A stretch of DNA of 64,000 bases from Onthophagus taurus (taxonomy: Eukaryota > Arthropoda > Insecta > Coleoptera > Scarabaeidae), in the NCBI RefSeq assembly GCF_036711975.1, contig NC_091967.1, positions 19,778,001 to 19,842,000 on the forward strand. Reading direction: 5' to 3'. The position numbers and the translations under genes were made by a program. The notes beneath the pieces are model-generated. The model had not been told where the DNA came from. It did no database searches and saw nothing but the letters and a program-made list of their open reading frames with translations. Positions 7,601 through 37,100 of this stretch are shown in pieces. Each line of letters begins with the position of its first letter. The stretch's first letter is position 1.

Positions 7601-10600
7601 GGTAAATACTCATTAGATATTACTAAAATGTTGAATTCTAATTTGCAGAATACGAATTTTTGTAACTTGGCAGAAATGTTGAACTACTAAAGGTAGCAAT
7701 TTAATAAAATTTTGCAGAATAAAGAAATAAAATATAATCTCAACTTTTATTAATGACACTGGTCAACAAGTTTTTTTCTTATACTCGGATTCGTGTATGT
7801 CATATACTTTTTTATTCTAATTCTGAAAATATTTTCAAAAATTGGCAAAATATCAAGATATTTTTAATCTAATTGGGCTACTCAAATCGAGTGAATTTAT
7901 GATAGTAACACTAGTTAACCGTATTTTGTATTTACAATGTTCCGTATGTGTGTAAACAATCCCAACAGTTTTTGTTATGTACGAGTATGTGGAGAATTCA
8001 TCGTTCAACAGTATAGGCGAAATATTTCACCTTTAAGAGAAAAAGAATCTCTATTTTAAATTAAAAGTATCAAGACAAGTTGTGGACTCCTTACAATTGC
8101 TGTGCACGATGTGGTGTTACTTTGAAGAGCTTGTTACAAAGTAAGAGCGTTGCTGTGTCATTTGCGCGACCTATGATTTGGTGAGAACAAAAGGACCATT
8201 CACCAGACTGCCACTTTTACTGTATAAAGACCTTCGAGTTTTCCAGAAAAAAATAAGAGGGTCCAGTTCCTACTACTGGTCCAGTTCCTCATTCGGAAAC
8301 TTTACCAATACCAAATCCTATGGATGTTTCAAACCTAGAACATGTTGATACTGAGATAGAAGCATATATTTCATAGTTGTCAAATACAGATGAAGAATGT
8401 TTGCCATCTGAAGAGAACCGCCTCATTAAATAAATCAATTGGAATATTGATCAAACCTAGAAAAATAAATCCTAGAAACATTGAAATATTTAAAACTTTA
8501 TTGAAAAACCTAAATTGGGCGCTTATGTATTTAAAAACAAATGACGCCAAAAACTGTTTTACAATATTCCACTCAGCCATAATGAAAAGCTTTCAGAGTG
8601 CTTTCCCTGAGGTGAAAGCTAAAAAAACAACTGGGGGTAAAAATCTTAAATGGCCAACAATAAATTAGACGCCTTGTATACAGTAATTAGAGTAACAAAG
8701 AAAAGCCACTTGAAGGAAATATACAAGACATTAAAAGCAGAATACGCAAAGAAATTAAATCAAACGAAGATTGAGAAAAGTCGATCCGATAATAAAATTT
8801 CGACTGCTTGGAAATTAATCAAACAAGAAACGGGAAAGTCTAGAAAAACGTCAATAGAGATTTAAACCTTTTCTTCTCTCAGGTTGAGACTATACCAGGA
8901 CACTCTACAGTCGACTACATAGATCCTATCAGCTTGATAGATTTGCCAACTTCAAGAATGGTATCTCTGGATGAAGTGGACGAACGGCAGATTGGGAATA
9001 TAATAAAAGGCCTAAAGGCAAAAAATATCAAGGACATATATGAACTGTCATCGGCACTAATAAAATAATTAGAACAAATCATAAGCAAACACCTATGTTT
9101 TGTTATAAACAAATGTCTATTAGAAGAAGTTTTTCCAAAGGAGCTAAAGTACAAAGATAACATCAGTACATAAGAAGGGAGATAAAAGTGTATGTAGTAA
9201 TTATAGACCAATATTTATATTGCCTACCTTATCCAAAAAAATCGAAATAGTATATAAGTCGATCCGATAATAAAATTTCGACTGCTTGGAAATTAGTCAA
9301 ACAAGAAACGGGAAAGTCTAGAAAAACGTCAATAGAGTACCCAGAGTTGAATGTTGAAGATTTAAACCTTTTCTTCTCTTAGGTTGAGACTACACCAGGA
9401 TACTCTACAGTCGACTACATAGATCCTATCAGCTTCATAGATTTGCCAACTTCAAGAATGGTATCTCTGGGTGAAGTGGACGAACGGCAGATTGGGAATA
9501 TAATAAAAGGCCTAAAGGCAAAAAATATCAAGGACATATATGAACTGTCATCGGCATTAATAAAATAATTAGAACAAATCATAAGCAAACGCCTATGTTT
9601 TGTTATAAATAAATGTCTACTAGAAGGAGTTTTTCCAAAGGAGCTAAAGTACAAAGATAACACCAGTACATAAGAAGGGAGATAAAAGTGTATGTAGTAA
9701 TTACAGACCAATATTTATATTGCCTACCTTATCAAAAAAAAATCGAAATAGTATATAAGTGATCCGATAATAAAATTTCGACGGCTTGGAAATTAGTCAA
9801 ACAAGAAACGGGAAAGTCTAGAAAAACGTCAATAGAGTACCCAGAGTTGAATGTTGAAGATTTCAACCTTTTCTTCTCTCAGGTTGGGACTACACCAGGA
9901 CACTCTACAGTCAACTACATAGATCCTATCAGCTTGATAGATTTGCCAACTTCAAGAATGATATCTCTGGGTGAAGTGGACGAACAGCAGATTGGGAATA
10001 TAATAAAAGGTCTAAAGGCAAAAAATATTAAGGACATATATGAACTGTCATCAGCACTAATAAAATAATTAGAACAAATCATAAGCAAACACCTATGTTT
10101 CGTTATAAACAAATGTCTATCAGAAGGAGTTTTTCCAAAGGAGCTAAAGTACAAAGATAACACCAGTACATAAGAAGGGAGATAAAAGTGTATGTAGTAA
10201 TTATAGACCAATATTTATATTGCCTACCTTATCAAAAAAAATCGAAATAGTATATAAGTCGATCCGATAATAAAATTTCGACGGCTTAGAAATTAGTCAA
10301 ACAAGAAACGGGAAAGTCTAGAAAAACGTCAATAGAGTACCCAGAGTTGAATGTTGAAGATTTAAACCTTTTCTTCTCTCAGGTTGAGACTACACCAGGA
10401 CACTCTACAGTCGACTACATAGATCCTATCAGCTTGATAGATTTGCCAAGTTCACGAATGGTATCTCTGGATGAAGTGGACGAACGGCAGATTGGGAATA
10501 TAATAAAAGGCCTAAAGGCAAAAAATATCAAGGACATATATGAACTGTCATCAACACTAATAAAATAATTAGAACAAATCATAAGCAAACACCTATGTTT

Positions 10601-13600
10601 TGTTATAAACAAATGTCTACTAGAAGGAGTTTTTCCAAAGGAGCTAAAGTACAAAGATAACATCAGTACATAAGAAGGGAGATAAAAGTGTATGTAGTAA
10701 TTATAGACCAATATTTATATTGCCTACCTTATCCAAAAAAATCGAAATAGTATATAAGTCGATCCGATAATAAAATTTCGACGGCTTGGAAATTAGTCAA
10801 ACAAGAAACGGGAAAGTCTAGAAAAACGTCAATAGAGTACCCAGAGTTGAATGTTGAAGATTTAAACCTTTTCTTCTCTCAGGTTGAGACTACACCAGGA
10901 CACTCTACAGTCGACTATATAGATCTTATCAGCTTGATAGATTTGCCAACTTCAAGAATGGTATCTCTGGGTGAAGTGGACGAACGGCAGATTGGGAATA
11001 TAATAAAAGGCCTAAAGGCAAAAAATATCAAGGACATATATGAACTGTCATCGGCACTAATAAAATAATTAAAACAAATCATAAGCAAACACCTATGTTT
11101 TGTTATAAACAAATGTCTATTAGAAGAAGTTTTTCCAAAGGAGCTAAAGTACAAAGATAACACCAGTACATAAGAAGGGAGATAAAAGTGTATGTAGTAA
11201 TTACAGACCAATATTTATATTGCCTACCTTATCAAAAATATTCGAAATAGTATATAAGTCGATCCGATAATAAAATTTCGACGGCTTAGAAATTAGTCAA
11301 ACAAGAAACGGGAAAGTCTAGAAAAACGTCAATAGAGTACCCAGAGTTGAATGTTGAAGATTTAAACCTTTTCTTCTCTCAGGTTGAGACTACACCAGGA
11401 CACTCTACAGTCGACTACATAGATCCTATCAGCTTGATAGATTTGCCAAGTTCACGAATGGTATCTCTGGATGAAGTGGACGAACGGCAGATTGGGAATA
11501 TAATAAAAGGCCTAAAGGCAAAAAATATCAAGGACATATATGAACTGTCATCAACACTAATAAAATAATTAGAACAAATCATAAGCAAACACCTATGTTT
11601 TGTTATAAACAAATGTCTACTAGAAGGAGTTTTTCCAAAGGAGCTAAAGTACAAAGATAACACCAGTACATAAGAAGGGAGATAAAAGTATATGTAGTAA
11701 TTATAGACCAATATTTATATTGCCTACCTTATCCAAAAAAATCGAAATAGTATATAAATCGATCCGATAATAAAATTTCGACGGCTTGGAAATTAGTCAA
11801 ACAAGAAACGGGAAAGTCTAGGAAAACGTCAATACAGTATCCAGAGTTGAATGTTGAAGATTTAAACCTTTTCTTCTCTCAGGTTGAGACTACACCAGGA
11901 CACTCTACAGTCGACTACATAGATCCTATCAGCTTGATAGATTTGCCAAGTTCACGAATGGTATCTCTGGATGAAGTGGACGAACGGCAGATTGGGAATA
12001 TAATAAAAGGCCTAAAGGCAAAAAATATCAAGGACATATATGAACTGTCATCAACACTAATAAAATAATTAGAACAAATCATAAGCAAACACCTATGTTT
12101 TGTTATAAACAAATGTCTACTAGAAGGAGTTTTTCCAAAGGAGCTAAAGTACAAAGATAACACCAGTACATAAGAAGGGAGATAAAAGTGTATGTAGTAA
12201 TTATAGACCAATATTTATATTGCCTACCTTATCCAAAAAAATCGAAATAGTATATAAGTCGATCCCATAATAAAATTTCGACGGCTTGGAAATTAGTCAA
12301 ACAAGAAACGGGAAAGTCTAGAAAAACGTCAATAGAGTACCCAGAGTTGAATGTTGAAGATTTAAACCTTTTCTTCTCTCAGGTTGGGACTACACCAGGA
12401 CACTCTACAGTCAACTACATATATCCTATCAGCTTGATAGATTTGCCAACTTCAAGAATGATATCTCTGGGTGAAGTGGACGAATGGCAGATTGGGAATA
12501 TAATAAAAGGTCTAAAGGCAAAAAATATTAAGGACATATATGAACTGTCATCAGCACTAATAAAATAATTAGAACAAATCATAAGCAAACAGCTATGTTT
12601 TGTTATAAACAAATATCTACTAGAAGGAGTTTTTTAACGCCAGTACATCAGAAGGGAGATAAAAGTGTATGTAGTAATTACAGACCAATATTTATATTGC
12701 CTACCTTATCAAAAATATTCGAAACAGTGCTAAACGAAAACTTGGTAGACTACATCAACAATAACAAATTGTTTACAAATTGTCAACATGGTTATTAAAA
12801 ACAAAAATCTGTTATAGCTGCTCTATTAAGTGTACTGGGAGCGGTAATCCATGGTTTCAATCAAGAACAGTTCACCCAAATCGTCATTTGTGACTTAAGT
12901 AAAGCCTTCGATTCAGTGGAGCATTCGATACTGACAGCCAAATTAGAAAAATATGGAATAAAGAACACTGCACTGGGGTTTTTGGTATCATATCTGGAGA
13001 CTAGAAAACAATCGGTCTTCTGGAGGGGCAAACAATCCACCTGGAGAGTAGTGAGAAGTGGAGTTCGATTTTGGATCCATTACTTTTCCTTATCTATGTA
13101 TATCAATGACTTACCAGGTAGTGTTCCAGCAGAACGAATTTGTCTTTATGCAGATGACACATCTTTTATTGCGAGAAGTGGTGTCATCAAGGAGCTCGAA
13201 GAAAAAACAAAACAAAATATAGAAAAAGCTGACCATTGGTTCTACATAAATAAATTAAAGATGAATAAAGAAATAACAAAGATACTTACCTTTCACACAA
13301 GACGATGCGATGGAGTGACAAATAATCCATAAAATTCCTTGGAGTTACTATTTCAGAAACTCTTAAATGGTCCTTAAACCTGAAAGGGTGTCTAGTGCTC
13401 TGTATTGCCTTAAAACAATACGTTCAAACCTTCCAGCCGAGACATGGCGAAGCGTATACTTCGCGTATTTCCATGCTATCGCGACGTATGGGATCATTAC
13501 GTGGGGTGCATTTAAAGAGATGGAAGCCATTTTCGTTATGCAAAAAAAGGCTGAAAAGAAAAGACCAAAAAGAGAGTTGTAGAACCCAATTTAAAAAATT

Positions 13601-18556: not shown

Positions 18557-19157
18557 ATGGATCCTGTGTTTCAACGGCTCGGAGATGTTACAATTCAACG
18601 TTTGGATAAAACGAAAGACTCCAAGGTGGGACTCCAAAGTGGTGGTGATCTTGTGGATGACGAAAGTAAAGATGAAATCCATTCGGATATAAACCTCGAG
18701 GACAGTCAAGGAATAAAAAGAAACTTTGATAACCTAGCAGGCCCTTCCAACAAACGTACCAAATTTGAATTTAAGAAAACCGGAGATGAATCTAGTAATC
18801 TTAGCTACAGCGATCCAGAATTGAGTGATTACGATTCCGAGAGCGAAATTGAATCAGATGAGGATATTGGAATTAAATCTCATATTAGAGAACCTGCCGA
18901 GATTAGTTCAGAATTGGAAACAAGCACTGATTTCTTAGATAAGTTGGTCGACGAACCCTATCCCAATGAGGAAAGTGAAGAGATTAAAAATCCAAGCGAA
19001 ATTAAATGTGAAGTTGATGACTACGAGTATGATATTAAGGAGAAATTAAAAGAAATGGGGGAGATTAGTTTTGAAACTGTTAAAAAAGGCGACAAACCTA
19101 AGAAAAGTGAGGAAACATCTGTTAATGAAGTTAGTGTTACACCTGCTAAAAAAAGTG
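18557..19157 (+). CDS. Arip4: ARIP4 exon 1: acidic N-terminus
   Basis: 200 codons rich in Ser, Asp and Glu (LSYSDPELSDYDSESEIESD). The donor GTG|GTGAGT at 19157/19158 leaves one G, which completes Val with the TT that opens exon 2 at 31697. The frame then leads directly into the known ARIP4 stretch NLRRNIREVMDETKL. The 12.5-kb intron holds the composite transposon. Confidence 0.8.
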
Positions 19158-22100
19158 GTGAGTTAATTCACTTTTATTTAAAAGTACAATTCCATGACAA
19201 GCGCCACTTTGGTATAATCAAAAAATTATTTACAATTATGAGGATTCATCAAAAATGAAACTCAAGAGACACTAATAAGTGTCATAAAAGAATGAGCTTT
19301 ACATTTCATACTTTTTTATGTTAATATTCCACGCTGCTAAAAGGTTCTTATAAAAAATTCAAAAAGATTGTGAATTTCATCACCTTAGAAGGCGCTATTG
19401 AAGCTTAAGGTATGCTTGGAAATAAGGTGATAACCAGTAGTAAATACATACAAATTTTCAAATTGTATGGTTTACTTATAGCTGAAATATAAAATAAAAT
19501 GTAAATTTTTGGCTCAACTTTGATCATTCATAACTCAAAAACAAAAGAGTTGCGACTCTATGTTTATGTGTGTTATTTTGGCAAGTACTATAGTTCGTTT
19601 TTTTTCTATAATACTTGTCAATGTAAATTTTTTAGGGTTTCTGTTGGTATTATCTAGGATCCTTATAAAATTTATGTTATTTTCCTGATTTTTAGTAACA
19701 TTTTCAGTAACTGAATAATTGAGGTTAAAATACTAATAAATTTTTAGATAAATACGATTTTAACGAAGTACATATTTATTGTAAAAACGTGCTAAAAAGT
19801 AATTAAATAGAACAAAACACCTTTTCTAGGACATATCTATTTCAAAACATGATAAAACAAAACTCCCTGTTAATTTTGCCAACTTTACAACAATTTGACA
19901 GGTATTATAGAAAAAAAATGAAGTTTACGTCCTAGTAAAGTTTCCCAATTAAAATCTGAACCACCCTGTAAAGGGTTTGTCACGACGAGCTGAGTCTACA
20001 GTGTGTCCCCGGATTGTGTCCCCGTAAGGTATAATTGACGATACATTTTTGAATTCAAATTCCATCTTTTGCAATTAAAGTCTGGATGTCATAAAACGAA
20101 ATATAACCAAGTTTTACGTCAAATATCCTCAGAGTACCAAAGTTAACGCAAGAAGTTTGTTAACCGTTGCAGGTAAAGTGGTCTTTCTGAGCAATGTACA
20201 ACAAAAGTTGATTAAGATAAAATGTTTGTTATGTTAAATCATAGCGATATGCCGAATTTTATTAATTTAGCATATAAAAGAAAAAATGAGCTGTCTTGAA
20301 AACTTTTTTCTAATATTCCGTTTTACAAAAAAACAAAAGATCTGAGTTTTACGTCACAACATAAAATATTTATAGCGCAGTGCTATGGATTGGGGAACAT
20401 TAGTTACAATGCAGTCTTAAGGCAATTTGAGGAAAAATTTGGATTTTTAGTAGATAAAAAAACAATAAAGAGAGTTGTTAAAAAAATTTCGGAAACGGGT
20501 AATGTGGAAAATAAAAGGAAGGAAAAAAAGTTTTTAGATGAACATAATGCTGGGTCGATTGTTGCAGTAACGAACGCAATGGATTACGGTAAGGTGTCGT
20601 ATTATAAACCAAAATTTAACCACACTATGGATTTAGGTGATGAAGCAAAACGTTTAGATTATTGTTTGTGGCTTGGGTACAAAATTTTGAGACATAACTT
20701 TTTTAAAAAACATAATATTTTCGGACGAAGCATCGTTCACCACTAATGGAGTGGTTACATCACAAAATTGTCGATTCTGGTCAAAGACTAATCCACATTA
20801 TCGCATAGCTTGTAAACGCCAGTATTCCCAGAAGGATACAACAAGGATAAAAGGTAATTTGAATCAACACCGATATTTGGAAATACTAGAAAATTGTTTA
20901 TTTAATTATTTTCACGGCGTGGATTTAGAAAAACGCAATAAATTATATTTTTAACAAGATGGTTGCGGCCCACATTCGACCATTTTAATTAGAAATTTGT
21001 TAAATACGTTATTTGGAAAAAAAATGGCTTGGTAGATATGGCCCGCAACCATGGCCGCCAAGAAGTCCGGATTTATCTATTATGGATTTTTATTTTTGGG
21101 GTTATGTAAAACAAAAAGTGTACACTGAAAATTTTAATAACAGTTTAGACCGTTTAAAACAAAAAATTGAAACCGTTATTAGAGACATTCCTTTGGACCA
21201 TATTAGAAAAAGTTATAAACAATGTCGGAAAAGGGCTGAATTATGTGTTAGTGTTGGTGGTGGTATCATTGAATAAGCTTTTATGTTAATTTAGTTTAGA
21301 TCGAAAATGTTTTGTTAATCTTATGATTTAAAAATCTGCAGTTTGCTTTTATATCCTAAATTAATAAAATTCGGTATATCGCTATAACTTAACATAACAA
21401 ACATTTTATCTTAATCAACTTTTGTTGTACATTGCTCAGACAGACCACTTTACCTGCAACGGTTAACAAACTTCTTGCGTTAACTTTGGTACTTTGAGGA
21501 CATTTGACGTAAAACTTGGTTACATTTCGTTTTATGACATCCAGACTTTAATTGCAAAAGATGGAATTAAAATTCAAAAATTTATCGTCAATTATACCTT
21601 ACGGGGACACAATCCGGGGACACACTGTATATGTATGTGGTAAACTACGGGCACTATTTTTCAGAAAATTTGCATATAGCGTTTATTCGAGGTGCTCGTT
21701 TTAGCTAAAATATTTTCAGTTTTCTCCAACTTCCGGTTATACCGGAAATGGACCCCAACTTCGTTATTTTAAATGGAATGTACCAATATTTATTGAATTT
21801 TCGAGATCCCCGCTAAATTTTAATATAATTTGATATAAATCATCATATGTCTAGAGTACAATATTTTTGAATTATTTCTGCTTTTTCGAAAATTTTGGCA
21901 GATGCAACTCTTCACAATAAAAATAATTTTTCAAAATAACATTCGAGTACGGCAAGTAAATGTTCTCAGGGTGTTCACAGAGAGGACCCATAGCTTACAA
22001 CAGCCTTGAAAAGTTTTTTAAAAAAGTATACAGGCTGGTCAGAAATTTGCGCCGAATTTCCCTATCTCAAAAAGTCTAAAACCTCATTTTTTTAAATGGC

Positions 22101-25100
22101 AACCCCAATTTTAATTACTTTTTAAAAAACTTTTCAAGGGTTATGTAAGCTATGAGTCCTCTCTGTGCAAACACTGAGAATATTTGGCCGGACTCGAGTG
22201 TAATTTCTAAAAATTATTTTTATTGTGAAGGATTGCATCTGCCAAAATTTTCGGAAAAACAGAAATAATTCAAAAATGGTGCAAAAATTCAATACAAATT
22301 AGTACCTTCCATTTAAAATAAATGTTATATGCAAATTTTCAGAAAAATAGTGCCAGTAGTTTTCCATATACATGTAGATTCAGCTCGTCGTGACAGATCC
22401 TGTATATGTACCAAAGAGTAGCCTGCGGTTTGCGGTTGTGGTTTGTAGTCCGCCGCCTGTCACGAAATTGTACCTTTATGATTTTAATTAGTTTTTGCTG
22501 TATTAATCCATATAGAAATTCAATTAAAAAAAATTTTCGTAGTCATTCAAGAAACCTTACAACTTAATTAATGGATGTTGAAAATGAAGTTAAGAATTAA
22601 GAAATTAACTCCCACAGTTATGTGACCTTGACTTGGTTGTCATGCTATATTCCAATCGATCAGCTATCATTTACATTCACTTTTACCAATTTCCTGATAG
22701 GAGAGCATTGTCATAGCTCCAGAGGTTTTAATCGCTGTTATTCTAAGAGCTGGATTTTTCTAAAAGTATTCCTTTTGTAGAATACATATATTAATCTATA
22801 TGGTAAAAACCCAGAATGAAGCTGTTATAACACCACATTCTGAAGCACATAACAATAAGCGAGGAAGAACAGGGGTTTTGAAAAAACGCGGTCTTCGTAG
22901 TTAACTAATTAGGGGGAAAAGCAATAGAATATAACAAACCAGTATACTTATCCCTCCAGTACACGCGTCTGAAGGCGCACGACTAAACCCGAAACTTTCT
23001 AGTAGCAACTTAGCACTGTATAAGAACTAAAACCAAAACTAACACTAGACCTAGAACTAGAAACATTCTGATTTAGGCCCACTTTTACCACCTCTTGATA
23101 AATTTATCCTATAGATAAATTGGCGCTCTTAGCCAATGAGAGCGCTTAAAACCGCTGTAACCATGGCAATTATCCCTTAGATAGTTTATCAGGAGGATGA
23201 TAAAAGTGGACCTTAGTCGTCCGTCTCTCAAGAAGAAGAATCATTTGGCGAAAATTTACCAATCTTTTCAGCTTCATTGTATCGTTGAGGAAGTGGAGAC
23301 GACCGATCTTGCAGCGTCGAAGCTTTAGCTTTCTTCCGACGATGTTCCAAGTGCTACCGATACTTACCGATACCGTCGTTATGCATAATGCCTTTCGGTA
23401 TGCGGCTTTTTTTGCCTATCGACTACCTTAAGGTACGTTTATGTTGGAGCTGCGATAAATGATAAGAGCAGCGCAAAATACATTCACAAGTGCAGAAAGA
23501 TTGTTCTGCAGAAACTCCAAGTAACGGTGACTTGTTAACGTATCGTGGTATAAATAAGGTCCTACCAAAGTTTCATTGATTATCCCACACCAAACATTGA
23601 CCCTATAAATCGTTTGATTCTTTGTTTGTGCAGTCCACCTAGGATTGTCCTGAGACCAATATCCATTATTTTGTTTGCATACTATTGCATTATTATGGAA
23701 ACGACTTTCGTCGCTCCATAGAATGTTATTCAGAATGTTGTCTCTTTCAGCCAAAACTGAAAATTCCGTTAAGAATTGAAGCCTACGGATATCTTCGCCT
23801 GGTCGTAAATGTTGCACAAAATTGCACTTAGATGGTAAAAATGTATTGGTTTTTAAAATCACGTGTATTCTTCCATCGCATGATCTACCCACAAAACATA
23901 GGACTGGATACAGTTCTATACACCCGGAGTAATCTCTGATCCTAGGGTAGAAAGTTCTACCAGTTTTATCAGAGGCTCATTTGTTAAAGCAGCGTTTGTA
24001 CCATTAGAATTTGAGGTTGACTTTAGTATGAAAGATTATGTAGATTATAGTATAGGGCCTATAGGCCTATATGGCTATATTATGGATTAAAGAACGCAGA
24101 TTGCTTAGTAGCTTTTACGCCTTTTTCTGGAACTACTTTCCCAAATTCTCTAAATCGGCTGTCAGGATCTTCTCTAATTATTCCAACGATCTATATCTTA
24201 CTGCAAAAGCCCAGACTTCGGTGTAGCTGTGCTTTTTGATCTTGTATCTGGCATGTCTGCGATATATAGATTTAAGAGGAGCAGTGCGAGTACCAACTCT
24301 TGTGGTAGGCTGGTCTTGAGTTACGTTATCAAGCATGTTTCTATGGTTAAAACTCAATATTCATAAAATTTGTTTTCAGTTTTAGTTCCATAGACTGAGG
24401 TAAGAAATTATCTTATTGATATTAGTTGGAAATGGCTGATCCAGTTTTTCTGATCAAGTTTGATCAAACTTAACGTTATGCTGATTAACTGGTGTGAAGT
24501 TATCCATAAATCCCAGCAATAAACTTAAAACATTAATAATTCCGTAACCAATACGATTTGGGTAACTAAATTTCACACACAGGTCACTCTTACCCTCAAG
24601 AACAGCTAACCACCCCCATTTGGTAAAAAAAAAATTTTTCAACCCTCACCCCCGAAAAAGGGATGTTTTCGCCCTGATGGGCACCTTCGAATTAAACGAA
24701 ATTCTACCACATAATAGAACACACTTCTAAGTATTTTTATCAATTTTCAAAACACCGTAAGCCCTAACGGTTTTCGAGAAAAAAAATCAGTATTATAAAC
24801 CGCGGATGGGACTTTAGGGGTGAATTTGACCCCGTTGGGCACCTCCAAAATTGACGAAATTTTAGGATGATTTAGAGGATGCCTTTAGCGATTGAAATCA
24901 ACCATCCAAACACCGTAATGTATTACGGTTTCCGAGAAAAAAAATGTGTTATTAGACACTATAGGTATACAGCGCGGCGCGGACTTTGGGGGTGAATTTG
25001 ACCCCGTTGGGCACCTCCAAAATTGACGAAATTTTAGGATGATTTAGAGGATGCCTTTAGCGATTGAAATCAACCATCCAAACACCGTAATGTATTACGG

Positions 25101-28100
25101 TTTCCGAGAAAAAAAATCTGTTATTAGACACTATAGGTATACAGCGCGGCGCGGACTTTGGGGGTGAATTTGACCCCGTTGGGCACCTCCAAAATTGACG
25201 AAATTTTAGGATGATTTAGAGGATGCCTTTAGCGATTGAAATCAACCATCCAAACACCGTAATGTATTACGGTTTCGGAGAAAAAAAATGTGTTATTAGA
25301 CACTATAGGTATACAGCGCGGCGCGGACTTTGGGGGTGAATTTGACCCCGTTGGGCACCTCCAAAATTGACGAAATTTTAGGATGATTTAGAGGATGCCT
25401 TTAGCGATTGAAATCAACCATCCAAACACCGTAATGTATTACGGTTTCGGAGAAAAAAAATGTGTTATTAGACACTATAGGTATACAGCGCGGCGCGGAC
25501 TTTGGGGGTGAATTTGACCCCGTTGGGCACCTCCAAAATTGACGAAATTTTAGGATGATTTAGAGGATGCCTTTAGCGATTGAAATCAACCATCCAAACA
25601 CCGTAATGTATTACGGTTTCCGAGAAAAAAAATGTGTTATTAGACACTATAGGTATACAGCGCGGCGCGGACTTTGGGGGTGAATTTGACCCCGTTGGGC
25701 ACCTCCAAAATTGACGAAATTTTAGGATGATTTAGAGGATGCCTTTAGCGATTGAAATCAACCATCCAATCACCGTAATGTATTACGGTTTCCGAGATTG
25801 TCTGAAATTTTAGGATGATTTGGAGAGTGGATTTTTGATAGAAAAAAAAACTTTTGATAAAGAATGAAATTTATTATATTAATGGTCTGTTTTACTTATA
25901 ATTAAATTGTGTAATGGATTGAGAATATTATTATAATTAGTTGCTACCGCGTTCCAAACCGCTTCCAATCCTTGTTCATTTAAGTGAATGCCATCCCTGT
26001 GTAGAAATTTGTATTAAACACATAAGAAAAGAAAAATTTTCACGTTGTGTTACCCTTCCATCATGTTTCTGTTAACAATTGCTTCAATGTCGGTACAATT
26101 GATTTGCTTTTCAGCACAAAACCGTCGAATGTAATGATTGATTTCCTATAAAGGCATAGAGAGTATTTATTTATAGCATGACATAGAAATTATAATATCT
26201 TACGTTCACAGACTCGAAGTTTTTGCAGGGAGGAATTGTGCAAATTTGTATTCCTTTAGGATTTAAGGAAAGAAGGAAGCGGAAGAGGTGAGAATATTGG
26301 GACTTTAGTTGGGATGGTGATGTTTTGTGGAGTATATCGTTAGTTCCTATCATTATAACGATATGTCGTTCAACAATATCTCCACAAAACCAAGGGGAAC
26401 ATGTTTTTGGAATACACTTTGCGCGCCGCAAAAGTTTTAGTATTGTTTGACCGCCTACTGCTAAGTCGAGGAAATATTTTCCGTTGCTTGTCCGTTTTGA
26501 TTGTCGTCCTAAAAATATATACCATTAGTAGGAATTAACTTCATATCTGTTAAAACAAATACTTACTTTGTATAGTACGTAGCATTCGGCAAAAATTACT
26601 ATCGCCCAAAAACAGTAATTTCGTCGGCATCTTCGCTGGTCACTGGTTTTAACAAGAGATAAGCAGAACAACTGATCTCTGCAATAGCTGAGGAACCTTT
26701 ATATATTATTAAGTTCTTACCTGTGTTACAGTAATATCGATGGCTATGATTGGTCAAAGCCGGTGTAAGTGTACTTACAATGCACTAACTCGTAAGCCAC
26801 GTACCTGCTTAAGTGACCTTTTTACTGAAAAGAAGTTAAAAAGGAATTCCCTGTACATTTATTAACATCAAAAATAAGTTTCTGAATATCACTATTTCTT
26901 TATTAACTTCGCGCTTCTAAATGAAGACGTCGTTACCTCGCCAAATATTAATATATATATATTATATATTTAATTAAATATAACTATATTTGTAATTTAT
27001 AATTTATATTATATATAAATATAATAACTTATTTATACACAATATATTATATACACAAAAATATTAACGAAAATATCGAAGCAGATTGATTCTAAAAAGA
27101 ACCGATAAAATATCCATAAAGCGCGAACTACAGCAAAATATATCAACTAGTGATCTCCGTCCCCAATAGAATAGTTTAAGCACATTTATAAGTTTACTCC
27201 TCACCCTTCTGGCAAAATCTAAAAAAAAACAAAGGCGCTCTAAAACAACGCCGAATAAGTCGGCAACTATTTTCCCGGAATGCACTTATAATGCAAAAAA
27301 TATGGACATATTTTTTCCTTAATACCTGCGCCTTTTGTAACTGCACGTGGCGGAGTTCTTACCCTTTGTCAGTAACGACTAAAAGCACATAAAACTACAA
27401 AATGCCTTTCTTAACAAAATTTATTTTTTCCATGAAATATTAAGAGTTTCGCAGTTTTCATAATCTATTAAAATCGCTAAAGGCACCTGCTATCTGGTCT
27501 ACATACGTGTACAATTTAATAACAAATTTTTTTCTCTGAAGCCGTTAAGGGTTACGGTGTCTTGACGGTCGATTTAAATCGCTAAAGGCATCCTCTAAAT
27601 CATCCTAAAATTTCATCAATTTTGGAGGTGCCCAACGGGGTCAAATTCACCCCCAAAGTCCGCGCCGCGCTGTATACCGATAGTGTCTAATAACAAATTT
27701 TTTTTCTCGGAAACCGTTATACCTTACGGTGTTTGGATGGTCGTTTTAAATCGCTAAAGGCATCCTCTAAATCATCCTAAAATTTCGTCAATTTTGGAGG
27801 TGCCCAACGGGGTCAAATTCACCCCCAAAGTCGACGCCGCGCTGTATACCTATAGTCTAATAACAAATTTTTTTTCTCGGAAACCGTTATACCTTACGGT
27901 GTTTGGATGGTCGATTTAAATCGCTAAAGGCATCCTCTAAATCATCCTAAAATTTCGTCAATTTTGGAGGTGCCCAACGGGGTCAAATTCACCCCCAAAG
28001 TCCGCGCCGCGCTGTATACCTATAGTGTCTAATAACAGATTTTTTTTCTCGGAAACCGTAATACATTACGGTGTTTGGATGGTTGATTTCAATCGCTAAA

Positions 28101-31100
28101 GGCATCCTCTAAATCATCCTAAAATTTCATCAATTTTGGAGGTGCCCAACGGGGTCAAATTCACCCCCAAAGTCCGCGCCGCGCTGTATACCTATAGTGT
28201 CTAATAACAGATTTTTTTTCTCGGAAACCGTAATACATTACGGTGTTTGGATGGTTGATTTCAATCGCTAAAGGCATCCTCTAAATCATCCTAAAATTTC
28301 ATCAATTTTGGAGGTGCCCAACGGGGTCAAATTCACCCCCAAAGTCCGCGCCGCGCTGTATACCTATAGTGTCTAATAACACATTTTTTTTCTCGGAAAC
28401 CGTAATACATTACGGTGTTTGGATGGTTGATTTCAATCGCTAAAGGCATCCTCTAAATCATCCTAAAATTTCGTCAATTTTGGAGGTGCCCAACGGGGTC
28501 AAATTCACCCCCAAAGTCCGCGCCGCGCTGTATACCTATAGTGTCTAATAACAGATTTTTTTTCTCGGAAACCGTAATACATTACGGTGTTTGGATGGTT
28601 GATTTCAATCGCTAAAGGCATCCTCTAAATCATCCTAAAATTTCGTCAATTTTGGAGGTGCCCAACGGGGTCAAATTCACCCCCAAAGTCCGCGCCGCGC
28701 TGTATACCTATAGTGTCTAATAACAGATTTTTTTTCTCGGAAACCGTAATACATTACGGTGTTTGGATGGTTGATTTCAATCGCTAAAGGCATCCTCTAA
28801 ATCATCCTAAAATTTCGTCAATTTTGGAGGTGCCCAACGGGGTCAAATTCACCCCCAAAGTCCGCGCCGCGCTGTATACCTATAGTGTCTAATAACAGAT
28901 TTTTTTTCTCGGAAACCGTAATACATTACGGTGTTTGGGTGGTTGATTTCAATCGCTAAAGGCATCCTCTAAATCATCCTATAATTTCATCAATTTTGGA
29001 GGTGCCCAACGGGGTCAAATTCACCCCCAAAGTCCGCGCCGCGCTGTATACCTATAGTGTCTAATAACAATTTTTTTTTCTCGGAAACCGTTATACCTTA
29101 CGGTGTTTGGATGGTCGATTTAAATCGCTAAAGGCATCCTCTAAATCATCCTAAAATTTCGTCAATTTTGGAGGTGCCCAACGGGGTCAAATTCACCCCC
29201 AAAGTCCGCGCCGCGCTGTATACCTATAGTGTCTAATAACAGATTTTTTTTCTCGGAAACCGTAATACATTACGGTGTTTGGATGGTTGATTTCAATCGC
29301 TAAAGGCATCCTCTAAATCATCCTAAAATTTCATCAATTTTGGAGGTGCCCAACGGGGTCAAATTCACCCCCAAAGTCCGCGCCGCGCTGTATACCTATA
29401 GTGTCTAATAACAGATTTTTTTTCTCGGAAACCGTAATACATTACGGTGTTTGGATGGTTGATTTCAATCGCTAAAGGCATCCTCTAAATCATCCTAAAA
29501 TTTCATCAATTTTGGAGGTGCCCAACGGGGTCAAATTCACCCCCAAAGACCGCGCCGCGCTGTATACCTATAGTGTCTAATAACAATTTTCTTTTCTCGG
29601 AAACCGTTATACCTTACGGTGTTTGGATGGTCGATTTAAATCGCTAAAGGCATCCTCTAAATCATCCTAAAATTTCGTCAATTTTGGAGGTGCCCAACGG
29701 GGTCAAATTCACCCCCAAAGTCCGCGCCGCGCTGTATACCTATAGTGTCTAATAACAATTTTCTTTTCTCGGAAACCGTTATACCTTACGGTGTTTGGAT
29801 GGTCGATTTAAATCGCTAAAGGCATCCTCTAAATCATCCTAAAATTTCGTCAATTTTGGAGGTGCCCAACGGGGTCAAATTCACCCCCAAAGTCCGCGCC
29901 GCGCTGTATACCTATAGTGTCTAATAACAGATTTTTTTTCTCGGAAACCGTAATACATTACGGTGTTTGGATGGTTGATTTCAATCGCTAAAGGCATCCT
30001 CTAAATCATCCTAAAATTTCGTCAATTTTGGAGGTGCCCAACGGGGTCAAATTCACCCCCAAAGTCCGCGCCGCGCTGTATACCTATAGTGTCTAATAAC
30101 AGATTTTTTTTCTCGGAAACCGTAATACATTACGGTGTTTGGATGGTTGATTTCAATCGCTAAAGGCATCCTCTAAATCATCCTAAAATTTCATCAATTT
30201 TGGAGGTGCCCAACGGGGTCAAATTCACCCCCAAAGACCGCGCCGCGCTGTATACCTATAGTGTCTAATAACAATTTTCTTTTCTCGGAAACCGTTATAC
30301 CTTACGGTGTTTGGATGGTCGATTTAAATCGCTAAAGGCATCCTCTAAATCATCCTAAAATTTCGTCAATTTTGGAGGTGCCCAACGGGGTCAAATTCAC
30401 CCCCAAAGTCCGCGCCGCGCTGTATACCTATAGTGTCTAATAACAGATTTTTTTTCTCGGAAACCGTAATACATTACGGTGTTTGGATGGTTGATTTCAA
30501 TCGCTAAAGGCATCCTCTAAATCATCCTAAAATTTCATCAATTTTGGAGGTGCCCAACGGGGTCAAATTCACCCCCAAAGTCCGCGCCGCGCTGTATACC
30601 TATAGTGTCTAATAACACATTTTTTTTCTCGGAAACCGTAATACATTACCGTGTTTGGATGGATGATTTCAATCGCTAAAGGCATCCTCTAAATCATCCT
30701 AAAATTTCGTCAATTTTGGAGGTGCCCAACGGGGTCAAATTCACCCCCAAAGTCCGCGCCGCGCTGTATACCTATAGTGTCTAATAACACATTTTTTTTC
30801 TCGGAAACCGTAATACATTACGGTGTTTGGATGGTTGATTTCAATCGCTAAAGGCATCCTCTAAATCATCCTAAAATTTCGTCAATTTTGGAGGTGCCCA
30901 ACGGGGTCAAATTCACCCCCAAAGTCCGCGCCGCGCTGTATACCTATAGTGTCTAATAACAGATTTTTTTTCTCGGAAACCGTAATACATTACGGTGTTT
31001 GAATGGTTGATTTCAATCGCTAAAGGCATCCTCTAAATCATCCTAAAATTTCATCAATTTTGGAGGTGCCCAACGGGGTCAAATTCACCCCCAAAGTCCG

Positions 31101-34100
31101 CGCCGCGCTGTATACCTATAGTGTCTAATAACAATTTTTTTTTCTCGGAAACCGTTATACCTTACGGTGTTTGGATGGTCGATTTAAATCGCTAAAGGCA
31201 TCCTCTAAATCATCCTAAAATTTCATCAATTTTGGAGGTGCCCAACGGGGTCAAATTCACCCCTAAAGTCCCATCCGCGGTTTATAAGAATGATTTTTTT
31301 TCTCGAAAACCGTTAGGGCTTACGGTGTTTTGAAAATTGGTAAAAATACTTAGAACTGTGTTCTATTATGTGGTAGAATTTGGTTTAATTCGAAGGTGCC
31401 CATCAGGGCGAAAACATCCCTTTTTCGGGGGTGGGGGTTGAAACAAATTTTTTTTACCAAATGGGGGTGGTAAGCTGTTCTTGAGGGTAAGAGTGACCTC
31501 TGTGTGAAATTTGGTTACCCAAATCGTATTAGTTACGGAATTATTAATGTTTTAAGTTTATTGCTGGGATTTATGGATAACTTCACACCAGTATGCTGAT
31601 TAATATTGTTAGTCAAGGTCACACAGCTGCAGAAACATTACTATTAATATAATTTGTCAAATCTTCAAATTAATTATTGTACTTTTATTTTTAAAGTTAC
31701 AGAAGATGATTTAAACGACCGTAATAAACTCGCTGGAAACTTACGAAGAAACATTCGCGAAGTAATGGATGAAACTAAACTCGACGAATCCACTTTGGCC
31801 GCGCAACGACAAGAAATGGAACGTTTACGACGCGTCCAAGAACAACAACGGATCCTGCGTGATTATCAGCGGCAAATTCAACAAGAACGCGTCATATCGT
31901 TGTTGCAGGGAAACGTCCCGAAAGCAGGAACTTCCGGAGCTCGCATCGGAAGTACGGTGCTGGTTAAGTTGCCCAATGGCCAAACGATGACGAAAGTAAT
32001 CAAGAAACCGTTTGAGTTGGTTAAAGTACCGAAAAGCGCCGTTCCACCACATAAAAGTCCGAAAAATTTGATAGCAATTAAAAAACCATCCGGAAATTTA
32101 ACGCCATCAGTTAGTATAGCGCCCGTTATGAAACGTCCACCGCAACTTGAACAAAGGTTTAGTGATAGTGACAGTGATAGTGAAGATGCGATGAGTACAA
32201 GGGTATCTTTACAAAAACCAAAACGTAAATACTTTAATTAAAAAGATTTTTTTTCAACGAGTTTAGAATAAACGCCAACTAATCAAAATTGTTTTATTAA
32301 CAACAAAGTAATTTATGGCGTTTAATCTAAAATTAATTATTATAAATATTTAGGAACTATTTTATTTTTCAGCAAAAGATCCTGTAACGACAATCGATAT
32401 TTCATCAGACGACGATTGTATAGTTGTTTCTGAATCAGAAAATGACCCAAATGATGACACAGATGAAGATCCTAGTAATTCTGGTTTGCATACAAACGAC
32501 GAATTTAATCAACCAGACGAGCAAGGTCGTGTTGTTGTGAATGTTGGTCACGCTGAAGATGAACAAGACGTGTATGTAGCGCCACAAATCGCTAGAATTA
32601 TAAAACCTCATCAAATCGGCGGAGTACGATTTTTGTTCGATAATGTAATTGAAAGTGTAAATAGATTTGAAAGTTCAACGGGATTCGGGTGTATTTTAGC
32701 GCATTCGATGGGATTAGGGAAAACGTTACAGATTGTGTGTTTTTCCGATATATTTCTTCGACACACACAATCGAGAACAATTTTATGTATAATGCCGATT
32801 AACACGTTACAAAATTGGATGGCGGAATATAATATGTGGTTACCAACTGAGGAAGCTGTTCCAAACAGTCCGTTAAATGCTCACGGAGAAGTTCGGCCTA
32901 GAAATTTTAATTTGCACGTTTTGAATGACAGTCATAAAACTTTGGCAGCACGCGCTAAAGTTATTCATGAATGGAAGGCCGGCGGAGGTGTTTTATTAAT
33001 TGGTTATGAACAATATCGATTGTTGTCGTTAAGAAAACATCCAAAAAGTCGAAAGAAAGTTCCAGTTATTGAACCCGTAGACGATGATAAAAGTAAATTA
33101 TTATTTGATGAGGTTCATGAAGCTTTAGTAAAACCAGGACCTGATTTGGTGATTTGCGACGAAGGTCATCGAATAAAAAATTCGCACGCTTCCATCTCTC
33201 AAGCTTTAAAACAAATGCGTACAAAAAGAAGAGTGGTTCTAACTGGTTATCCACTACAAAATAATTTAATGGAATATTGGTGTATGGTTGATTTTGTTCG
33301 ACCAAACTATTTAGGTACAAAGACGGAATTTTGTAATATGTTTGAGAGACCCATTCAAAATGGACAATGTATAGATTCTACAGAGGCTGATATAAAATTA
33401 ATGCGATATCGGGCGCATGTGTTGCATTCGTTACTTCTTGGTTTTGTACAAAGGCGATCTCACACCGTTTTACAAACCGCTTTACCACAAAAAGAAGAGT
33501 ATGTTTTGTTGGTTAGAATGACACCATTCCAAAGAACTTTGTACGAAACATTTATGAACGAAGTTGTGCGAACGCAAACCGTTCCAAATCCATTAAAAGC
33601 ATTCGCGGTTTGTTGTAAAATTTGGAACCATCCAGATGTGTTGTATTACTTTTTAAAAAAACAAGCTGGAGGAGAAACGGTGGATATTGACTTAGAGGAA
33701 GTAGCTTCGACCACAACAAATGAGACAACAGCAAAACCGAAAAAGGGATCAAAAAAAAGTACAGGAAAAGGGAAAAATGCAAAACCAGCCGCGTCGGTTA
33801 CGCCTTATAATTCTTCTGATATTGGAGGCAAAAATAAAAAATCGTCTGGAAAAAACCAAAACAATAACAACAATATTAACAACAATATTTCGCAAACCCA
33901 ACCCACGCCACAAACTCCAACCGAACAAAATAACTACCAAAATTATCCAGTGAAAATGGAATTTGAGTACTCAAACAGCTCTGGGTACGGTTCAAATCAA
34001 AGTTTCTCTTCAGGTTATCAATCGCAAAGTCAAAACATGGGTGAAAGTCCGAGTTATCCATATTCTAATCAAAGTACACCATCTTCACAATATCCAGCGA

Positions 34101-37100
34101 GTGGTACACCTCAAAGCGACTCGAATATATATCCTTATCAACCAAACACTGGTAATCAAAATTATTCTACTGAACCGTTTGCTGGGGGTCCAAACCATAA
34201 CTTTGATCAAAAACCGAATTTTAATAAGGGAAATGATTACCCTCCAAACTTTAATCAACAACCAACAACACCTCAATATAATCAAAATTCCCAAAATTAC
34301 AATCAACCACCAAAGAATTCTTTTCCTGAACATCAAGAGAATTACCCAGCGAACCAACAAGGAAATTTTACTCCAACTCAAAGTTCTTATCCACCAAATG
34401 AACAAAAGGGATTTAGAAACCCCGAAAATGAGTTTAATCACCAACAAAATACTGGGGGATTTCAAAATCAACATGCTACTTTTTATGATAATCAAAACCC
34501 CCAAGAATATCCTACTCTATACGAACCATGTAGATATCCAGTTGGAAGAAAACCTTCGCAGCCTGGTCCACCAAATAACGAGTCACAACAGCCCTTACAA
34601 CCACATTCTGGATATGCAACATCCAATAATAATAACTTACCACCGCAAAATCACAATTTACCACCGCAAAATCATAATTTACCACCACAAAATCATAATT
34701 TACCACCACAAAATCATAATTTACCACCGCAAAATCATAATTTACCACCACAAAATCATAATTTACCTCCGCCAAATCATAATTTACCGTCGCAAAATCT
34801 CAATGTTCCTTCTAATGGTCATAATATTAATCCTCAAGGTCATAATGTTCCATCACAAACTCATAATATTCCCCCTCAAAGTCATGGTACTCCACCACAT
34901 GGACATCACCAACATAATTCTTCTTATGAGGGACTTAATCCGCATTCACAAAATATGAATCATCCACATGGTGGGCATTCTCAAGGAGGAAATCATTCTC
35001 AAAGTACTGGACATCCTCAAGGAGGGAATCATTCTCAAAATATTGCGCATCCCCAAAGTGGGACACATCCACAAAATGCAGTGCATTCTCAAGCTGGTGT
35101 ACACCCACATACTTTACAAAGTGGACATCCTCAAAATTCAGGACATTCTCAACCTAACTCTCATCCTCCTCCACCGTTACCACATCCTCAACCACACAAT
35201 CCTTCAACTCCATATCCTCAACATCATTCAGATAATCCTGATCATCATCAAACTGGAACAAATCCTGGGTACCCGCCTCAACATAATCAACCAACCACCC
35301 CGTATCATCCTTCAAGTGTTGATGGATACCCTCAAGGTGTTGGACAAAATCCTGCCCCTGGAGTGCATCCTCTAAATGTAGGACATCAGCAAGCAATCCA
35401 AAATGTTCAGAACGTTCCAAATTCTCAACATTTCGGAAATTACCCGCCTCCTCAAAGTAATCAACCACAAAGTCACCAACATCATGGACATCAAACACCT
35501 CAAAATGCAAGGGAGCCACCTCAAAATATTAGAGATCAGACTCAAAATGTTGGTGGGCACCCCCAAAATCAACCTCAAAGTGTACCAGAAGTTACTACAA
35601 ACCCTGGATATGGAATGCCACCGAATAATGGCCACCAAATTCAAGCTCCGCCTGGACATAATAATGTATCTGGTTATCCTCAAAACGCGAATTATCAAGT
35701 GCAGAGCTCTGTGCCTCCTCAAAATGTAAATCATCCAACTCAAATTGTACCACCTCAAAATTTAAATCAGCCGCCTCCAAATATTCCTCCAACTTCAAAT
35801 GCACCCCAAAGTATTCAAAACTATCCTCCTCAACCAGCACAAACATATCCGCCAAATGTACCACCCCATTATAATTCTTCTAGACCGAATCAAGAGAATC
35901 CAACTTATCCATTGCCCCAAGATCAACAATCACCTTATCCAAATAGAGAAGCACCACAAAATCAACCCTATCAACAAAATAACACTCCTGGTTATCAACA
36001 TCCACCTCCAAATACTTATCAAAGTGGTAGTGGTCAAGGAGAATATACAACTAACCAATATAATGAAAATCAATATCACGGAAATTCGACGCAAAATTAT
36101 ACAAGTGAGAGCCCACCAAAAGGTTTTCAACCAAATTCTACGAATTCTTACCAAAACCCACAACAAAATCCCGAGTATTCATCACAACCTTACCAAAATC
36201 AACAACCGCCATATCAAAATTATCAACAGAATCAGTATCCTAATTATCCAAATGGAGGAAACAATTCTGGTGGTAAAGATAATACATTTCCTCAAAATTA
36301 TAAACAAGAAGTTCCTCAATCGCCATATAAACAAGAAGTAGGTCAGCCCCCATCAAATTATCCCAATCAAAACCAACAATTTCAACCACCTGGTAACTTT
36401 GATAACTATCAAAATCAACAACAACCTTATTGGAATCAAGAATATAAACCGAACGAAAATTATAACAAACCAAATGAAAGCTATAACTTTAAGCCGCCGT
36501 TTAATCAAAATTATCCAAATCAACAATGGAAAAAGGAAGAAAAGTCGCCGTCTTCAAACATTTGTCCGAGTCCTGTTAAAAGTGAACCCGGTGATATTAA
36601 ACCAAAAATAAACATAATAAGTGATATAAAATTAAGCGGAAATTCGGCGTACGACATGAATAAAAAGATTAATATTTTAAGCGATATTAAATTGGAGCCG
36701 AAAACGGAAAACGATGAAATCAAAGAGGAAGTTAAATCGGAAAAGGGGATCGACATCAAACAAGAACCCAGTGACGATGATATTAAAATTGTCGAAGCTA
36801 CACCTGCAATTAAAACGGCGACTAAAGAAGATACTGGTATTCCATACGATTGGGCTATCGAATTGTTAAAAGATTATGTTCCTGGTATTATTGAAAATTC
36901 CGCTAAATTAGAAATACTTTTTTGTATTATCAAAGAAAGTATTGCACTCGGTGATCGATTATTGGTTTTTAGTCAATCTTTAATTACTTTAGACTTGATT
37001 GAACAGTTTTTACAGATGAATGTTGTTCCAGGAGATACATTAAATTGGGCCAAAAATGTTAATTATTATCGTAAGTATTTTTGAATGAAAGTCTGTGGAG

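Follow-up and report, generated by a model that had tools for sequence, protein, structure and literature searches.

The element at positions 24488-31592 of a 64-kb stretch of the Onthophagus taurus genome (the window, G000:C2:19778001-19842000, to whose numbering plain coordinates refer) is a member of a real, young, high-copy family of foldback transposons, and a hydrolase of the SGNH type is the only recognisable gene in this family. The likely explanation, in our view, is that a non-autonomous foldback family, probably mobilised by a transposase of the Mutator-like element (MULE) type, captured an SGNH hydrolase gene, introns included, and then multiplied it as cargo. We base this on the structure of the window element, on copies of its ends, arms and centre found by searches of the whole 290.8-Mb genome, and on the state of the gene in two subfamilies, A and B.

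Structure and dispersal of the foldback family

The window element, a 7105-bp member of subfamily A, was delimited by its ends, its inverted arms and its copies elsewhere in the genome. It is flanked by the target-site duplication ATGCTGATTA on the left (24478-24487) and on the right (31593-31602), in the layout ATGCTGATTA – ACTGGTGTGAAG ... CTTCACACCAGT – ATGCTGATTA. Inside the duplication lies a distal end unit, recognised from genome matches and monomer alignment, which consists of a terminal inverted end and a divergent monomer-like stretch (24488-24809, plus strand) and which recurs as an inverted copy at the right end (31271-31592, minus strand). Further inward are two tandem arrays with a period of 172 bp: 5.8 monomers form the left arm (24809-25797, plus strand) and 21.8 monomers, inverted relative to these, form the right arm (27517-31271, minus strand). 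Between them is the subfamily A centre (25798-27516), comprising the hydrolase gene and its upstream region. The inverted arms are 97% complementary (24488-25797 against 30283-31592). A first-pass annotation of the window had described just such a structure, with inverted ends inside a duplication and oppositely oriented arms made of 172-bp monomers, and we confirm it.

The ends are dispersed through the genome. An 18-mer from the end has 239 genome matches with up to 2 mismatches (116 forward and 123 reverse), and 183 with zero mismatches and one base left free (93 and 90); the reversed control gave 0 in both searches. We paired ends using 100 listed of the 239 matches, all 100 of them exact. 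Eighty-four of these form 42 inward-facing pairs, 2.8-11.8 kb apart, and 16 are single; the partners of these probably contain mismatches and so are absent from the matches listed. The distal end unit tells the same story–the best 40 of its 255 candidate matches are all 99-100% identical. From the 239 ends we estimate the size of the carrier family to be of the order of 100 copies.

Of the 39 centre loci that lie outside the window, we fetched the 20 that scored best in order to read their flanks, and all 20 proved to be A or an older group that we call A'. Both ends were readable in 17 of the 20, which together with the window gives 18 elements. All 18, which are A and A' elements only, have target duplications of 8-11 bp; these are exactly 9 bp in 14 cases and at least 9 bp in 16, and the single one that reads 11 bp is located in a TA run. 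As a control, 306 mismatched flank pairs share at most 6 bp, compared to at least 8 bp in 18 of 18 genuine pairs. The perfect 10-bp duplication reported in the first-pass annotation is present at the window element, but 9 bp is the norm for the family, and the tenth base may be either real or a coincidence. The same annotation had called the element a transposon, a reading that absence of other copies bounded by these ends would have contradicted; instead there are at least 42 listed pairs, and every element read at both ends has its own target duplication. Dispersed copies that each have their own duplication, together with long inverted ends built of internal tandem repeats and varying in length between copies, are the characteristics of foldback elements.

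The variation in arm length is mostly by whole monomers. Relative to the window element, the difference is a whole number of monomers (within 0.1 unit) in 16 of 17 right arms and 11 of 17 left arms; the exceptions are A' copies, two A copies that are off by half a unit, and locus L029, which has an insert. A palindromic 16-mer, CCGT[A/T]A-N4-T[A/T]ACGG, occurs 29 times in the element (24755-31325), about once per monomer and once per distal unit, and nowhere else in the window, and these palindromes are candidate binding sites for a transposase. The distal end unit resembles the monomer (local alignment score 185; the highest of 200 shuffles scored 130), so the inverted end itself may have given rise to the monomers, an origin likewise proposed for the Tetris element (PMC4079207). 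A 47-mer from the monomer has 1254 genome matches with up to 3 mismatches (control, 0). The 100 of these that were listed are all exact, all on contig 1, and all within nine elements–94 in eight end pairs, and 6 behind the single left end C1:25595448. We rejected a free satellite as the origin of the arms, there being no free array among these 100 listed sites on contig 1.

The hydrolase gene and its subfamilies

The gene is on the minus strand and has four exons: exon 1 (26567-26630) with the ATG and the GDS block, exon 2 (26204-26508) with the LAVGG and GTND blocks, exon 3 (26054-26145), and exon 4 (25879-25996) with the DGIH block and the stop codon. Its introns of 58, 58 and 57 bp are all GT..AG, and the product is 192 amino acids long. 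By consensus only, we recognised a candidate TATA box (TATATAAA, 26698-26705, minus strand) about 70 bp ahead of the ATG and an AATAAA poly(A) signal (25870-25875, minus strand). Residues 21-163 of the product match the Pfam family Lipase_GDSL_2 (PF13472) with an E-value of 2.9e-12 (47.9 bits; the cut-off is 32.9). The Pfam-aligned stretch does not include the GDS block (residues 9-11), which was identified by eye, as were the GG, GTND and DGIH blocks; the blocks occur in the order GDS, G, GxND, DxxH (block names follow the relevant part of PMC4021074). On this sequence evidence the product is a member of the SGNH/GDSL hydrolase superfamily. The spliced SGNH gene proposed in the first-pass annotation, with intact GT-AG sites, catalytic blocks, TATA-like box and AATAAA, is therefore upheld.

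Other searches with the gene and the centre returned little. The Oskar-type OSK domain also matches the hydrolase, below its cut-off (E = 1.1e-5). Seven other open reading frames of the A centre match zero Pfam families at E 0.1, and reading the centre in six frames showed nothing recognisable besides the hydrolase. In a search for wider protein homologues there was a single match at E up to 10 among 56 candidates, while searches of solved structures and of NCBIfam gave nothing significant and nothing over the cut-off, respectively. The only AlphaFold model was that of an annotated O. taurus protein, LOC111429034 (predicted local distance difference test score, pLDDT, 37), and we did not use it.

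Using 25798-27450 as the query, we found the A centre at full or nearly full length in at least 21 places, with 97-100% identity, and parts of it elsewhere (best 40 of 129 candidates). The copies of subfamily A are recent, because identity across the 1653-bp query is 99.6-100% in 17 young A centres. The reading frame and all splice sites are kept in 15 of these 17 (the window and L017-L030), with frameshifts in L031 and L032. In the older group A' (L033-L036) two of four copies keep the frame and splice sites, and a further copy, L052, has a stop codon in exon 1. Subfamily B is about 95% identical to A and is without about 470 bp upstream of the gene. At least 40 copies of it exist (best 40 of 112 candidates), each with 98-100% identity along all or most of an 824-bp stretch.

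The hydrolase centre is common to 39 of the 42 pairs among the listed ends. Seventeen of the 39 have A (including A' and partial centres) and 22 have B (21 by position, and L049 by reading), so B is at least as numerous as A among the listed pairs. Of the remaining three, one has other cargo, one has arms only (L047), and one was not assigned (C2:15420786-15425188). Four pairs (C1:19229729, C3:4191416, C7:31980382 and C7:37343182) that seemed to be centre-less were found to hold B.

The B copies that we read are dead. In L005, GTND reads RTKD and DGIH reads DGIY, changes that remove the oxyanion-hole asparagine and the catalytic histidine, and there is also an alteration in the first splice donor. 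L049 also has RTKD, and keeps the splice donor; the histidine is outside the part read. Because the other B copies are 98-100% identical to L005, they are apparently dead as well. There is a warning for annotation here: LOC111429034 (from the nr database) matches a dead transposon copy letter for letter. Its 176 residues are the exact translation of L005, and its annotated start falls in a stretch that is intron 1 in subfamily A.

To examine selection on the gene we compared differences shared between A and A' to private changes. The shared differences between A and A' amount to 2 synonymous and 1 conservative non-synonymous change in 579 coding bases, with 16-17 in non-coding DNA; eight of the non-coding differences form one cluster, of nine bases at 27227-27235, which looks like one replacement event. 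Private changes number 19 non-synonymous to 5 synonymous in A' (counts that include two frameshifted copies) and 14 to 3 in L005. By arithmetic with site numbers of 123.7 and 452.3, the ratio of non-synonymous to synonymous rates (dN/dS) is about 0.14 on the master branch, on three changes, and about 1.0 to 1.3 on the private branches, a contrast that is not significant (Fisher P = 0.12). The Fisher count leaves out 11 changes among the young A copies, and two changes (1 non-synonymous, 1 synonymous) shared by two A' copies only. The changes among the 17 young A copies, 1 synonymous and 10 non-synonymous, are uninformative for dN/dS. The pattern suggests, on the strength of three changes in the master sequence, a gene that is conserved in the master and decays after insertion.

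Mobilisation, cargo and genomic setting

End-to-end reading of 17 fetched elements showed 16 of them to be free of any stretch of at least 30 bp foreign to the window element. The exception, L029, has an insert of 817 bp in its arm (6161-6977), with its own inverted termini of ~130 bp and no hydrolase or MULE reading. It is probably a nested transposon, which from its termini we take to be of the hAT type. The pair with other cargo, C6:1792081-1795584 (L050, L048 and L051), has identical 18-bp ends, a 9-bp duplication (AGGATAATT), arms that are about 82-88% identical, and no hydrolase. Its cargo is a 682-bp unit, present twice in full and a third time in part, that contains a fragment of a piggyBac transposase (PF13843, E = 1.2e-17), so the same ends can hold unrelated sequence.

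Because we saw no transposase in the elements other than this piggyBac fragment and the nested insert, movement in trans is expected for the family, and because the duplications are nine bases long a MULE-type enzyme is suggested. Such a transposase, encoded elsewhere, would bind the ends and perhaps the monomer palindrome, excise the element, and reinsert it with a 9-bp staggered cut, and the arms would be lengthened or shortened by unequal exchange or slippage of monomers. The hydrolase gene would have been captured between the arms as genomic DNA, and not through mRNA, because it keeps its introns. It would be transcribed from its own promoter, and would not be needed in cis for movement; the spread of subfamily B suggests that a working hydrolase is indeed dispensable in cis. 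The family shows the non-transposon gene, located between mobile ends and multiplied by transposition, that defines Pack-TIR (terminal inverted repeat) elements and Pack-MULEs, and its duplications of 8-10 bp, mostly 9 bp with one 11-bp exception among 18, are those of MULEs. The P superfamily makes duplications of 7-8 bp and has a transposase of the P/THAP type. The mostly 9-bp duplications speak against that superfamily, to which Galileo-type foldback elements belong, although P-element transposases were not searched for.

Some of our results weigh against capture and MULE mobilisation. The assignment to MULEs is inferred from the 9-bp duplications and from nothing else, and the duplication lengths cover A and A' elements only, no B element having been read at both ends. 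There are 16 matches to MULE domains in the genome, one of them with a 464-codon open frame of ZSWIM type. In the 8 of these 16 loci that we read there is no convincing end within 1.5 kb (the best chance matches differ from the 18-mer at 3 and 5 bases), and where positions could be compared with exact-end pairs from the listed matches, in 10 cases, not one is inside a pair; the other 6 lie where no ends are among the matches listed, and mismatched ends fall outside that listing. The first-pass annotation had proposed to look between the arms for the hydrolase or a MULE transposase, and only the former was found there, with no MULE transposase placed inside at those 10 positions. Lastly, no host donor gene was found, as all 21 genome matches to PF13472 are element copies (20 assigned by position against A-centre copies, and the 21st by reading), in an exon-by-exon search that misses split genes. 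One candidate partner end beside a MULE match, an 18-mer with 3 mismatches in L041, was rejected since it sits in a different palindrome and the alignment extends no further. Separately, in L040 a MULE match lies beside 27.5 tandem copies of a 28-bp unit (2500-3288), perhaps another MULE lineage with repeat-built flanks.

The hydrolase might alternatively be a working accessory gene, comparable to the CR1/L2 retrotransposon esterases, supplied in trans to dead copies and kept by selection on the spread of the element. The low dN/dS of the master A/A' coding sequence, beside 16-17 non-coding changes and nearly neutral private changes, is in line with this, as are the intact state of 15 of 17 young A copies and the recurrence of SGNH genes in unrelated transposons (parts of PMC4021074, PMC5408684 and PMC3905857). 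We nevertheless regard it as unlikely, because the trunk has three changes only, the contrast is not significant, and 8 of the non-coding changes are in one cluster, and also because subfamily B, of which the copies read are dead, is no less numerous than A and the hydrolase-free element C6:1792081-1795584 has moved too. For the same reasons the proposal in the first-pass annotation of a Pack-MULE-like capture kept under selection is supported as regards capture, which is our best reading, but not as regards selection. Its other proposal, an accessory enzyme belonging to a new transposon family, keeps some probability because we found neither a transposase with these ends nor a donor gene. It is doubtful that a cut-and-paste DNA transposon has here gained an active accessory enzyme, a hydrolase that helps the family to spread by working in trans on membranes, lipids or modified proteins. 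If it has, it acquired independently an enzyme class that is present in CR1/L2 long interspersed nuclear elements (LINEs), in rotifer long terminal repeat (LTR) and Penelope-like elements, and in fish Helitrons.

We think it quite improbable that the elements descend from an autonomous transposon with both a transposase and the hydrolase, of which the hydrolase remained when the transposase part was lost. The near-universal hydrolase centre (39 of 42 listed pairs) would fit such an origin, but the seven further frames of the A centre and its six-frame reading show no second recognisable gene, and the piggyBac pieces are fragments of a superfamily that does not make 9-bp duplications. The piggyBac superfamily makes TTAA duplications. 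Chance, an assembly artefact, or segmental duplication of a host gene with a satellite is barely credible: all that speaks for it is the usual difficulty of assembling inverted tandem arrays, and against it are the 239 end matches with a control of 0, the different flanks of the 18 elements read at both ends, each with its matched duplication, and the location of all 100 listed monomer copies, of 1254, within nine elements. Capture of the gene by a foldback family that moves in trans is the explanation that we retain.

The window element is located within the first coding intron (19157-31692) of a gene for an ARIP4-type helicase, whose flanking exons are at 18557-19156 and from about 31693, so that the element ends ~100 bp ahead of the latter. 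The hydrolase is antisense to this host gene. The adjoining gene sequence at 32354-37084 is 99% identical to O. taurus LOC111415174 (ARIP4-type helicase). Elsewhere in the window there are about 7.6 copies of a 500-bp tandem repeat with 96% identity (8858-12634), adjoined by an open frame (12799-13332) that is presumably reverse-transcriptase-like, and a LINE at 47227-49635 that encodes an endonuclease and a reverse transcriptase in two neighbouring open frames, of which the first was run against Pfam.

Comparison with known systems

We describe an animal foldback element that is recently active and present in many copies, and in which the one recognisable gene is probably a captured enzyme. 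Among the listed results of searches in the open-licence PubMed Central (PMC) literature we found no foldback element with an SGNH gene, and the main text of a 2026 survey of arthropod MULEs contains neither 'hydrolase' nor 'Onthophagus' (PMC13359780). The comparisons that follow draw on parts of the papers cited.

Two families resemble ours in their arms. Tetris of Drosophila virilis is also a non-autonomous foldback, with ~220-bp tandem repeats in its inverted ends, duplications of 8-10 bp and no transposase found, but it apparently encodes nothing and free satellite arrays were seeded from its repeats, whereas here the 100 listed of 1254 monomers are in element arms (PMC4079207). In Tm1 of Meloidogyne the inverted ends are composite, built of repeats and variable in length, the duplications are 9 bp long, and non-autonomous members likewise carry other sequence; Tm1 differs in having one member with a Phantom-type MULE transposase, none being found here (PMC3169594).

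The nearest system in architecture is Ssk-FB4 of Drosophila melanogaster, in which a host gene lies in a foldback with long repetitive inverted ends. This foldback makes 9-10 bp duplications and has transposed repeatedly with its host gene, which is nearly complete and contains introns; it is classed as a Pack-MULE, and its carrier FB4 is moved by a transposase of unknown identity (PMC8277862). Ssk-FB4 has four polymorphic copies and a known parental gene, whereas our family has an estimated ~100 copies, an SGNH gene, and a donor that was not found. Also unlike Ssk-FB4, a whole subfamily here has spread with a version of the gene that is dead in the copies read (PMC8277862). Because intact and apparently dead subfamilies coexist in one genome, the family offers a natural experiment on whether an SGNH hydrolase is a helper or a passenger.

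SGNH enzymes have been found in transposons of several unrelated classes, and there is no agreement on the reason. The esterases of CR1/L2 LINEs and the GDSL open reading frames of the bdelloid elements Vesta and Athena are similarly SGNH/GDSL genes added to a transposable element, but these genes of CR1/L2 and rotifer retroelements accompany a mobility enzyme, and ours does not (PMC3905857, PMC5408684). Nearest in gene and situation is Texim, an intron-containing SGNH gene of unknown function that was multiplied together with a DNA transposon; its carrier is a fish Helitron, a rolling-circle element of an unrelated transposon class, and it has seven copies in platyfish (PMC4021074).

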